Positions 43,105-59,315 of a stretch of DNA of 64,000 nucleotides are shown in pieces. How positions within the stretch are numbered: the first letter of the stretch is position 1; every line of letters starts with the position of its first letter. The translations under genes were made by a program, and so were the position numbers. The notes below the pieces were generated by a model that worked only from the letters and a program-made list of their open reading frames with translations, searched no databases and was not told the DNA's origin. The stretch comes from Rhabdothermincola sediminis (GTDB lineage Bacteria; Actinomycetota; Acidimicrobiia; Acidimicrobiales; Acidimicrobilacustridaceae). Location of the stretch: positions 124,001 to 188,000 of the forward strand of contig NZ_JACFSZ010000002.1 of NCBI RefSeq assembly GCF_014805525.1, in the 5' to 3' direction.

Positions 43105-43512
43105 TCAGGTGGTGTCGAGCCGCTCCGCGCGCTGACCGGTGATGCCGGCGATCAGCTCGAAGTCCTCGTCGGCATGCAGCACGGTGAGATCGGCGAACTC
43201 GGCCGTCGCGGCGATCAACAGGTCGGGTACTGACGGGGCCCGGTGCTGGCCGCGCTCGGCCAGCACGGCCTGCACCTCGACCGCGCGGTCCTCGATCCTC
43301 GGCGTCAGGTATTCGACAGGCATCGATGCGATCGGCGGCGCGCCCAGAAGCGACCGATGGTCGGACGCCGACCGGGCGGAGTAGCCGACCTCCAAACGGG
43401 TCACCGTCGAGATCCGCACCAGACCGCGCTCGATCCGATTCGCCCACTCCCCTGCATTCGACGCGAGGTGCAGCCGAACGATGGCCGACTTGTCGATCAG
43501 CCAGCCTGTCAC
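43105..43512 (-). CDS. vapC: PIN-domain toxin, VapC family (135 aa)
   Basis: Ribonuclease toxin of a type II toxin-antitoxin pair. PIN acidic residues: Asp7 (WLIDKSA), Glu41 (RLEVGYS), then Asp in [12 protein letters not shown] and LHADEDFE, a full set of four. GTG 43512 overlaps the vapB stop (GTGA). The partner antitoxin is immediately upstream. Likely cleaves a tRNA or rRNA, as VapCs do; target unknown. Confidence 0.92.
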
Positions 43513-43730
43513 GACCAAGCGCCCGACATGACTTCGGGGTCATCCAGATCGCGGGCCAACGAAGCCACCCGCTCGAGCTGCTCGACCGTGACGGCTCCCT
43601 CATCCTGGACACGTTCTCGCTCGAGTGCCCTCCGCAGATACTCGGTTCGCGAGAGCCCCAATCGCTTCGCCTTGGCATCGATCGCCGCCACGACCTCCTC
43701 GGGCACGTCCCTGATCAAGATGTCCGTCAT
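43509..43730 (-). CDS. vapB: Antitoxin VapB-like, ribbon-helix-helix (73 aa)
   Basis: Starts [39 protein letters not shown], a FitA/VapB-type ribbon-helix-helix DNA-binding region. The acidic C-terminal tail ([10 protein letters not shown]) would wrap the toxin. ATG 43730 has GGAGGTGG upstream. It carries an operator palindrome just upstream and overlaps vapC, as in standard autoregulated modules. Confidence 0.9.
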
Positions 43731-47609: not shown

Positions 47610-49778
47610 CTACCCGCCGCGGCGGACCCGGACCGAGATGGTCGAGTAGCACATCTCGTCCTCGGTACCCTCGGCCCAGGTCACGTACCGGGGAACCGGT
47701 GAGGTGATGAGGTCTCGGTCCCAGGAGCACTCGACCCGCACCACGTCGGTGGGTTTCAGATCGATCCGGTCCCGGGGTCGGTAGACCAGCTGCCAGTTGA
47801 AATCCCAGCTCGGGATGTCGAGCAGGACCTTCTCGTCCGGCGTGCCCGGGTTGAGGGTCATCCGGAAGGTGCGCCCGATCTGGTGCTCGTGCCCGAGGAC
47901 CCCGACGATCTCCCCCGGCGTGACCACCCGGTGGTCACAGCCCGAGCGGGCGACCCCGTCCGCGTCGAGGACCGCGAGCTCCGCCAGGCTCCGCCGGCAC
48001 AGCATGATCAACCCGTCGGGGATGGCACTCGCGGCCGGCCCGAACTGCCGGGTCAGCTCGTCGATGGCCGCGTTGCGATCGCACAGCGGCGCCTTCTCCC
48101 CGGACCGACACGGGATCTCGGCAGGAGCCAGGTAGGTGTTGGTCACGATCTCATCCAGCACACCGCCGGCCTGCATCTCGAGCGCCAGCTGGGAGCGGTC
48201 CGGCGGCGCCTCGTGGGCGAAGTGGTAGTGCACCTGGACCACGAAGAAGTCGCCCGGCGCCAGCTTGATGCCCGATCCCTCCGGCAACCTGTTCGGGCGT
48301 TGCCCCGGCACCCACCCGGCGATCAGCTCCGAGCCTCTCGTCCGGCCCGTGGGGCTCTGCTCCCCACCCGGACCGGCGGTCCCGAAGAAGCAGTGCCAGC
48401 CCGCACCGGCGTCCGCGGTGTCGAGCGCCTCGACCTGCGACCGCAGCGATGCCGACACCTTGAACACGAGGGCGTGGTGGACCACCGGGAGTTGGTCGGG
48501 GAGGAACTCGAAGCCGGTCACCCAGGTCCGCTCCTGCACCTGCGGGTCGTAGGCGAAGCACCGGTAGTCGTTGGTCAGACCGGTCGAGCCCTGATACGGC
48601 TCCGGCGGTGCCAGGACCCGATCGTGGCGGATGCTGAAGGTCTGCTCCAGATCGTCCGCCGGCGGCCGGATCGGGGTCGAGGGGTCGACGTCGAGAGGAC
48701 CACCTGCTCGCGCCCATCGGGCGATCACTCCGATCTCGGCGTCGCTGAGCCGCCGCTCATGCATGAGCGGCACCCCGACCGGAGACGCCGGCCAGGGTGG
48801 CATGTACCGGGACTCCACGACCTTGTCGATGCTGTCCGCGTGCTTGGCGACGTCCGCTGCCGTGTCGAGCCGCCAGGCGGACTCCCCGGCCTGACCGGGG
48901 TTGTGGCAGGTCGCGCAATTGCGCTCGAGGATCGGTTGCACCGTCGCGGCGAACGACGGGTCCGAGCCCATCACCAACTCCGCGAACCGCCCGTTCGCGC
49001 CTGAGCCCGGCTGGTACGGCAGGCCCTTCGCTTCGTCGATCGCCCGCACGTCGATGATCAGGGTGGCGTCCCGGCCGGTCCGCGCCAGCGGACCGAGGCT
49101 GATCGGCCCGATCCCCCAGTCCGCCAGCTGCACGGTGGTGCGGGCGTTGACCACCACGTCGTCACCTTCGATGCCGGCCTCGGCGTCGAGCACGATCGGC
49201 TTGCTCACCCCCTTGACCTCGAGGTCGGCCTCGATCCGCAGGGGATACCTCGCCCCTTCGCTGATCCGGGCGGGCAGCCCGTCGATCCGTGACGCTCGCA
49301 GGTGGGCGAGCGGGTACTCGCTCGATTCCAGGAAGTCGTGCCGGATCCGGTCGTCGCGCAGGGACTGGTCGCTCGTGAGCTGCTCGACGTTGATGACCAC
49401 CTCGCCGAGCTGCGAGGCCGAGGGATCTGCCCGGTCGACCAAGATGTCGCCCGCCACGCCGCTGGTCGAGCCTCTCGCCGTGTTGCTCTTCCCGGCGAGG
49501 ATCTCCTCGACCTCGTAGGTGACCGAGGAACGGGTGGCGTCGATCCGGTAGACCGTCTGGCCCGGCCGGGTGGCGATCAGCCTCGGCGCGTCGGGCACCG
49601 CCATCGAGACCTCGACCGAAGGGGTGCTGGCCCGCAACCACCACCAGGTGCCGACAACGGCGATCGCCGCCACGCCGGCCAGCACGACGACGAAGCTGAA
49701 CAGCCGTCGAGCAGCGGAACGACCTCCCGCTCGGCCGATCGGCTCACCCTCCACGTGGCCGGGCGAACGCTCCGGCAT
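47610..49778 (-). CDS. YceI - cytochrome c - copper monooxygenase fusion membrane protein (722 aa)
   Basis: Three domains in one chain after a transmembrane anchor (about 27-46). Residues 75-246: YceI-like lipocalin (TVYRIDATRSSVTYEVEE, VVINVEQL...RIRHDFL). Residues 275-345: c-type cytochrome with haem motif CATCH (Cys288, Cys291, His292) and a likely Met326 ligand (SRYMPPWP). Residues 405-722: Cu type II monooxygenase-like domain with VVHHALVF (434-435), HYH (517-519), GHEHQIG (630-632) and EMC (Met709), the complete Cu-H and Cu-M ligand set of PHM-like enzymes. Predicted: extracytoplasmic copper hydroxylase receiving electrons through the haem. No homologous operon partner is visible. ATG 49778 lies just after a G-rich sequence. 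Confidence 0.85.
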   Translation of the reverse strand: MPERSPGHVEGEPIGRAGGRSAARRLFSFVVVLAGVAAIAVVGTWWWLRASTPSVEVSMAVPDAPRLIATRPGQTVYRIDATRSSVTYEVEEILAGKSNTARGSTSGVAGDILVDRADPSASQLGEVVINVEQLTSDQSLRDDRIRHDFLESSEYPLAHLRASRIDGLPARISEGARYPLRIEADLEVKGVSKPIVLDAEAGIEGDDVVVNARTTVQLADWGIGPISLGPLARTGRDATLIIDVRAIDEAKGLPYQPGSGANGRFAELVMGSDPSFAATVQPILERNCATCHNPGQAGESAWRLDTAADVAKHADSIDKVVESRYMPPWPASPVGVPLMHERRLSDAEIGVIARWARAGGPLDVDPSTPIRPPADDLEQTFSIRHDRVLAPPEPYQGSTGLTNDYRCFAYDPQVQERTWVTGFEFLPDQLPVVHHALVFKVSASLRSQVEALDTADAGAGWHCFFGTAGPGGEQSPTGRTRGSELIAGWVPGQRPNRLPEGSGIKLAPGDFFVVQVHYHFAHEAPPDRSQLALEMQAGGVLDEIVTNTYLAPAEIPCRSGEKAPLCDRNAAIDELTRQFGPAASAIPDGLIMLCRRSLAELAVLDADGVARSGCDHRVVTPGEIVGVLGHEHQIGRTFRMTLNPGTPDEKVLLDIPSWDFNWQLVYRPRDRIDLKPTDVVRVECSWDRDLITSPVPRYVTWAEGTEDEMCYSTISVRVRRGG

Positions 49779-58116: not shown

Positions 58117-58130
58117 TAGCCTCCCGAACC

Positions 58131-59315
58131 ATGACCACCACGGAGCCCGCGGCCGCCTCGGCGACGAAGCAGCGATGGTCGTTCCAATGGAAAGAGCTCT
58201 ACGAGGAGGTCATCACCTCGGGCCTGTGCACCGGCTGCGCTGGTTGCGTGGTCTCCTGCCCCCACGACGTCATCGGATACGACCACGCCCAGGGCGGGTA
58301 CCGGCCCTTCCACCTCGAGGACGAGCTGGGCCCGAGCGATTGCATCCACGGGCAGAAGGGCTGCACGACCTGCACCCGGGCCTGCCCCCGGTTCCGCGCC
58401 TGGGAACCGGAGGCGAACGAGCACCTCTTCGGCCACGATCGCGGCCCCGAGGAGGTGGCGGGCATCTACTCGGACATCCTCCTCACCCGCGCCACCGACG
58501 AGATGGTGCACCGCATGGGCCAGGACGGCGGGCTGGTCTCCGCCATCTTGATCTGGGCGATGGACGAGGGCTACATCGAGGGCGCGCTCACGTCGTTCCT
58601 CGACGGCGAGGCCGGCGACTGGAAGGCCATCCCCGGGGTGGCCACGAACCGGGACGAGGTGCTCGCTTCAGCCGGCAGCCGGTACACCTACTCGGCCAAC
58701 ACGCTCGCCATCGACCAGGCACTCGAGCGAGGACTGACCAAGCTGGCTCTGGTCGGCATGAGCTGCCAGTCGTCGGTCCCACCGGTGATGTGGCATCGCA
58801 AGGCCGGCAAGATCAGCAAGCCCATCGTGTTCAACATCGGGTTGCTGTGCTCCAAGACCTTCGACGACGCGATCTTCGAGGAGCTGTTCTGGGCCAAGTA
58901 CGGGCTCGACAAGCGGGACATCGCGAAGATGAACATCAAGGGCGTGTTCCAGATCTGGATGCGCAACGGCGACTACCACGAGATCAACCTCAAGGAGTGC
59001 CACGCCTGGACCCGTGAAGGGTGCAACCACTGCCCCGACTTCGCGGCCGAGCACGCGGACATCTCCTGCGGTGGCATCGGCGAGCACAACGACTGGACAC
59101 TCACCATCGTGCGCACCGAGCTGGGCCGGGAGATCATCACCCGGATGATCGCCGACGGCTCGATCGAGGCCCGCCCGGGCGACAGCGACCCCGGGGCCAT
59201 CGCCCTGATGCGCAAGCTGGCGGTCAAGAGCCGCGAGCGTTGGCCCGCCTGGGCCGAGCCAGCGGTCCGGGTGGGGCTCCCGGAGCCGAAGAAGCCAGTC
59301 GCGACCAGCGGGTGA
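58131..59315 (+). CDS. Coenzyme F420 hydrogenase/dehydrogenase beta-subunit (FrhB) family protein (394 aa)
   Basis: Iron-sulfur flavoprotein of the FrhB/FpoF family. Two N-terminal [4Fe-4S] motifs: CTGCAGCVVSCP (Cys33, 36, 39, 43) and GCTTCTRACP with a preceding Cys. The middle has the family's GQDGGLVSAILIWAMDEGYI, and later GMSCQSSVPP, GLLCSKTFDD and GCNHCPDFAAEHADISCGGIG. In this family it passes electrons from F420H2 to another acceptor; similar bacterial proteins are stand-alone. The partner is not visible. Divergent from CDF, with a palindrome 14 bp upstream. Confidence 0.9.
   Translation: MTTTEPAAASATKQRWSFQWKELYEEVITSGLCTGCAGCVVSCPHDVIGYDHAQGGYRPFHLEDELGPSDCIHGQKGCTTCTRACPRFRAWEPEANEHLFGHDRGPEEVAGIYSDILLTRATDEMVHRMGQDGGLVSAILIWAMDEGYIEGALTSFLDGEAGDWKAIPGVATNRDEVLASAGSRYTYSANTLAIDQALERGLTKLALVGMSCQSSVPPVMWHRKAGKISKPIVFNIGLLCSKTFDDAIFEELFWAKYGLDKRDIAKMNIKGVFQIWMRNGDYHEINLKECHAWTREGCNHCPDFAAEHADISCGGIGEHNDWTLTIVRTELGREIITRMIADGSIEARPGDSDPGAIALMRKLAVKSRERWPAWAEPAVRVGLPEPKKPVATSG

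Follow-up and report, generated by a model that had tools for sequence, protein, structure and literature searches.

A membrane-anchored protein that joins YceI-like, haem c and PHM-like copper domains in Rhabdothermincola sediminis and other Acidimicrobiia

A single open reading frame in the window (the whole stretch of 64,000 nucleotides of Rhabdothermincola sediminis DNA that we analyzed) encodes a membrane anchor, a YceI-like domain, a c-type haem domain and a copper domain with the fold and ligands of PHM. We consider it rather probable that the product is a membrane-tethered, extracytoplasmic dicopper monooxygenase of the PHM type that is fed through its own haem c instead of by ascorbate, with YceI as a dispensable isoprenoid module. 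Electrons would enter from the respiratory side, from menaquinol either directly or via a bc-type complex, and would pass from haem c to CuH and then to CuM, where activation of O2 would lead to hydroxylation of an exported substrate at a C-H bond.

The frame runs on the minus strand (49778..47610) and encodes 722 amino acids plus a stop, starting from an ATG. The proposal in an earlier note on this DNA that three domains are fused in one 722-residue chain is confirmed for the whole frame (47610..49778) by the reading frame itself, Pfam, AlphaFold2 and VIA. The AlphaFold2 model, for which the input alignment held 67 sequences (66 natural homologues plus the query), has a pLDDT of 87 and a pTM of 0.80. 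In that alignment the putative haem and copper ligands C288, C291, H292, M326, H434, H435, H517, H630, H632 and M709 are invariant in all 67 sequences, as are eight cysteines. The chain begins with a membrane anchor helix at residues 21–49 (49632..49718, minus strand), which is evident from the sequence and is helical in the AlphaFold2 model, with low confidence there, and homologues likewise start with a hydrophobic N-terminal segment. Export to the extracytoplasmic side is implied by this helix, and the earlier description of a membrane-anchored, extracytoplasmic protein is supported.

The copper domain was compared with PHM by sequence and by fold. Its N-terminal, CuH half (residues 384–552; 48123..48629, minus strand) matches Pfam Cu2_monooxygen over 412–519 with an E-value of 2.4e-5, and its C-terminal, CuM half (residues 553–718; 47625..48122, minus strand) matches Cu2_monoox_C over 623–712 with an E-value of 0.01, both below the gathering score. 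When the AlphaFold2 model was placed on rat PHM with VIA-align, residues 384–722 superimposed with a Z of 22.7 over 259 residues at 2.6 A (6ala_A), and 1sdw gave a Z of 21.6. The protein therefore shares with PHM and DBH one fold over the whole of 384–722, both copper sites and all six copper ligands, whereas identity is only about 18% and the chain also includes haem c and YceI domains. In the CuH half, VVHHALVF falls on TVHHMLLF of rat PHM and VQVHYHF on VLQVHYG in a profile alignment, so that His434-His435 (48474..48479, minus strand) correspond to PHM His107-His108, and within H517-Y-H519 (48222..48230, minus strand) His517 corresponds to PHM His172 and is followed by His519, which is typical of haem-bearing homologues. 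The HMM alignment is unreliable over the CuM half, for which the match to PHM comes from the fold and from the motifs HxH and DEMC; its ligands are His630 and His632 in HEH (47883..47891, minus strand) and Met709 in DEMC (47652..47654, minus strand), the last corresponding to PHM Met314, and all three are present in 138 of 138 copper-domain rows. The full set of copper ligands claimed earlier thus stands as six PHM ligands, invariant in the alignment and consistent with the fold, except that HYH contributes one ligand (H517) and not two.

PHM and DBH are animal copper enzymes whose electrons are supplied by ascorbate, and how electrons are transferred between their two distant coppers is still debated. 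The fusion protein has no known ascorbate-fed partner. In PHM, Arg240, Asn316 and Tyr318 are the contacts that bind the carboxylate of the glycine-extended peptide substrate; at these positions, placed relative to HxH and DEMC, the fusion protein has L628, Y711 (F or Y in homologues) and T713 (T or S). Peptide amidation is therefore unlikely as judged from these residues, and the name PHM does not suit the protein because Arg240, Asn316 and Tyr318 are not kept. This loss, together with the lack of a known substrate and of a conserved neighbour from a substrate pathway, might suggest that the domain, no longer a monooxygenase, now serves to bind copper, to handle peroxide or NO, or to sense redox state. 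We regard such a conversion as quite improbable, and against it stands the invariance of all six catalytic copper ligands (H434, H435, H517, H630, H632 and M709) in 138 sequences, including the CuM methionine, which is required for PHM activity. A dicopper site of the PHM type with an intramolecular haem c is the supported reading of the protein.

The haem domain spans residues 275–370 (48669..48956, minus strand) and matches Pfam Cytochrome_CBB3 over 279–331 with an E-value of 1.7e-4, below the gathering score. It carries the attachment motif CATCH at 288–292 (48903..48917, minus strand), with both cysteines and the histidine invariant in 67 of 67 sequences, and a probable distal haem ligand, the equally invariant Met326 of an MPP motif (48801..48803, minus strand), so the earlier assignment of a haem CATCH with a methionine ligand holds. 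Modelled alone, the domain gave a best VIA Z of 5.8, with the monohaem cytochrome PccH and with YhjA, which is a weak match; the six VIA rows all belong to c-type haem proteins, none with a Z above 5.8, and Foldseek returned no significant match for the haem-domain model. Of the three folds, two are thus clear and the cytochrome fold is weakly indicated by the model. At 17–20 loci of relatives the genes ccmC, ccmE, ccmF, a ccmG-like thioredoxin, ccmH and a TPR (ccmI-like) gene immediately precede the fusion gene, a gene content that was established by a Pfam run on one locus; examples are L089:150-7903, L092 and L094-L097, among others. This System I linkage fits a covalently attached haem. 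In R. sediminis CcmF is encoded elsewhere, on the same contig as the window.

The haem c would relay single electrons and would in turn depend on a donor, and no flavin or NAD(P)H reductase domain is present in the chain, so the earlier description of the enzyme as self-sufficient is not supported. Residues that differ between haem-bearing and haem-less copper domains may bear on this relay. H519 is found in 94 of 96 YceI-bearing forms and in 30 of 30 YceI-less haem-bearing forms, and is Asn in 12 of 12 haem-less forms; over the same comparison of 126 with 12 sequences, W658 and W662 are mostly Y in haem-less forms, R688 is replaced by P and E554 mostly by D. A role for H519 in transfer from the haem to CuH is a fair guess from its position, because a CuH ligand stands two residues before it. 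The signature as a whole is no proof, because the haem-bearing forms make up a single clade; it represents roughly a single independent change in evolution and could be due to the substrate rather than the haem. The haem-less homologue of Nonomuraea gerenzanensis, from outside the class, carries Asn at position 519 and Tyr at position 658. This homologue (L182:2501-3436) looks like a lipoprotein, and its gene is left unannotated in the record.

The YceI-like domain forms a lipocalin barrel at residues 75–250 (49029..49556, minus strand). Pfam YceI (PF04264) matches 77–245 with an E-value of 5.5e-22, above the cut-off, and comparison of residues 75–250 with ligand-binding YceI structures by VIA gave Z scores of 18.9–16.8, among them BcnA (5ixh, 18.9), TT1927b (1wub, 18.6), E. 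coli YceI (18.2) and a polyisoprenoid-binding domain of Saccharophagus (2x32, 17.0); the earlier call of a YceI-like fold is upheld by both. The strands alternate in hydrophobicity, so that the barrel interior is hydrophobic as in lipocalins, and the conservation of the domain (0.47) lies within that of the other domains (0.45–0.53), with the family hallmark residues R141, D142 and L150 invariant. Because it is conserved like the other domains and has a hydrophobic interior, the domain probably binds an isoprenoid, as this sequence pattern suggests. Polyisoprenoid binding by YceI proteins is stated in the structure titles of 1wub and 2x32/2x34 and in PMC9113575, where YceI lipocalins are also linked with cytochrome b561 and ubiquinone-8. 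Stand-alone YceI proteins such as E. coli YceI, TT1927b and BcnA have the same fold (Z 17–19), and some are encoded beside a cytochrome b561 gene (LcoA), so that they are tied to a redox haem protein (PMC9113575) as in the fusion; these YceI proteins are, however, stand-alone or operon partners and are not fused to an oxygenase.

A precedent is found in Cellvibrio japonicus, where Cbp2D and Cbp2E carry a YceI-like X158 domain and Cbp2D adds the c-type cytochrome domains X183 and X132. Cbp2D resembles the fusion in that one exported chain combines a YceI-like isoprenoid or ubiquinone domain with c-type haem and is linked to a copper monooxygenase (PMC8981238, PMC12542752). In the Cellvibrio system, by contrast, the copper enzyme (an LPMO of AA10) is a distinct protein with a different fold, and there is a cellulose-binding module. 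One c-type haem of Cbp2D reduces copper LPMOs in vitro (PMC8981238), although what it does in the cell is not settled (PMC12542752). By analogy, this precedent and the link of YceI lipocalins with cytochrome b561 and ubiquinone-8 (PMC9113575) would favour a quinol store that feeds the haem over a substrate carrier as the role of YceI. A specific form of this idea, in which YceI extracts menaquinol from the membrane and passes electrons to haem c and CuH so that the quinone pool replaces ascorbate, is possible, though we hold it to be less probable than not.

Natural proteins without YceI bear on its role. Three architectures occur in the order, namely the copper domain alone, a lipoprotein in which a linker precedes haem c and the copper domain, and the TM-YceI-haem c-copper domain fusion. 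In the second group (L127, L128, L134, L142-L167) the haem and copper domains are identical in kind to those of the fusion, whereas a lipobox-like signal and a low-complexity linker replace its TM helix and YceI domain. When 109 copper-domain rows were placed in a maximum-likelihood tree, with the haem-less forms as a distant outgroup for the root, YceI-bearing forms came out basal in the haem-bearing clade and YceI-less forms nested within it at several places; forcing the YceI-less forms into one clade was rejected by 248 log units (p-AU 1.4e-49). The fused YceI domains form one clade, separate from stand-alone YceI (98/98). Because the fused YceI domains are monophyletic and the YceI-less forms polyphyletic, the history is read most simply as a single fusion and, later, three or more losses, in an order that depends on the root. 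YceI would thus not be essential to the chemistry, because the same two domains, haem and copper, persist on a lipid anchor in lineages from which it has disappeared, and its repeated loss speaks against either a quinol store or a substrate carrier being indispensable.

The earlier note had proposed that YceI presents a hydrophobic substrate, and in its full form this means that YceI captures an isoprenoid-like molecule and passes it on, within one chain, to the copper site for hydroxylation. The hydrophobic barrel interior and the polyisoprenoid binding of YceI proteins stand in its favour, and the changes at L628, F/Y711 and T/S713 relative to PHM mean that the substrate need not be a peptide. 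The presenter role is nevertheless weakened by the YceI-less homologues and the three or more losses of the domain: we found no copper-domain columns that consistently separate YceI-bearing from YceI-less forms, and the flanking sequence available for 29 YceI-less loci contained no YceI gene. We therefore rate such a hand-over as unlikely. That a low-complexity linker on a lipid anchor can stand in for YceI would also agree with the domain being a mere spacer or docking module above the membrane, its ligand irrelevant to the reaction; this too is doubtful, since the domain is as conserved as the catalytic domains, down to its invariant hallmark residues, which exceeds what a spacer needs. We thus return to YceI as an accessory isoprenoid-binding module, which would most likely serve as a local (mena)quinol electron supply or a lipid holder.

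The R. sediminis genome (3.29 Mb) contains three YceI domains and a single PHM-like gene. Seven genomes of the same family carry the fusion in full or nearly so, and the search for the same domain architecture that the earlier note had called for recovered the full-length fusion in at least 51 of 397 sampled genomes, all of the same order (Acidimicrobiia). Across 396 genomes sampled throughout the phylum the fusion occurred only within that order, and among the best 80 matches listed, named relatives were mostly Acidimicrobiia. Homologues are 39–57% identical across the whole length, each in a single open frame without stops, and isolate genomes such as the finished Aquihabitans sp. G128 and IMCC26207 carry the fusion. 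An artefact of assembly or gene calling was rejected as next to impossible, given the presence of the fusion in at least 51 genomes and in isolates and the stop-free frames of the homologues. Two or more copies occur in G027, G028, G041, G055 and G349, and tandem triple fusions lie at G223:C1:1519851-1521932 and 1522448-1524559 (L032). Three MAG records, two under the title Bifidobacterium breve (L059, L064) and one under Acidobacteria (L084), also carry fusions of the Acidimicrobiia type; probably these records are mistitled, or their contigs are misplaced. Plasmid records gave YceI-only matches and one haem-less PHM homologue, that of Nonomuraea.

In the window the fusion gene is preceded by a PhoD-like phosphatase gene and followed by a TauE/SafE-type permease gene, beyond which an LCP protein is encoded. 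No conserved operon that might serve as a clue to the substrate was found across relatives, in which the neighbours vary by lineage except for the ccm cluster. Elsewhere in the window a PIN-domain protein (43105-43518, minus strand) with a small ORF just upstream is probably part of a VapBC-type toxin-antitoxin pair, and a protein like the beta subunit of Coenzyme F420 hydrogenase/dehydrogenase, with 4Fe-4S motifs, is encoded at 58128-59309 on the plus strand.

Each part of the protein is already known, and the literature searched yielded no account of their combination. A search for this fusion, or for bacterial PHM-cytochrome fusions, in literature that included few subscription journals returned nothing relevant, in line with the earlier remark that the architecture had no known description. 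If our reading is true, a coloured haem wired into a chain of the PHM type would allow electron entry to be tracked optically, and the repeated natural removal of YceI offers ready comparisons for its role. The finding would also point to an unrecognised extracellular oxidation in widespread, poorly cultured actinobacteria.
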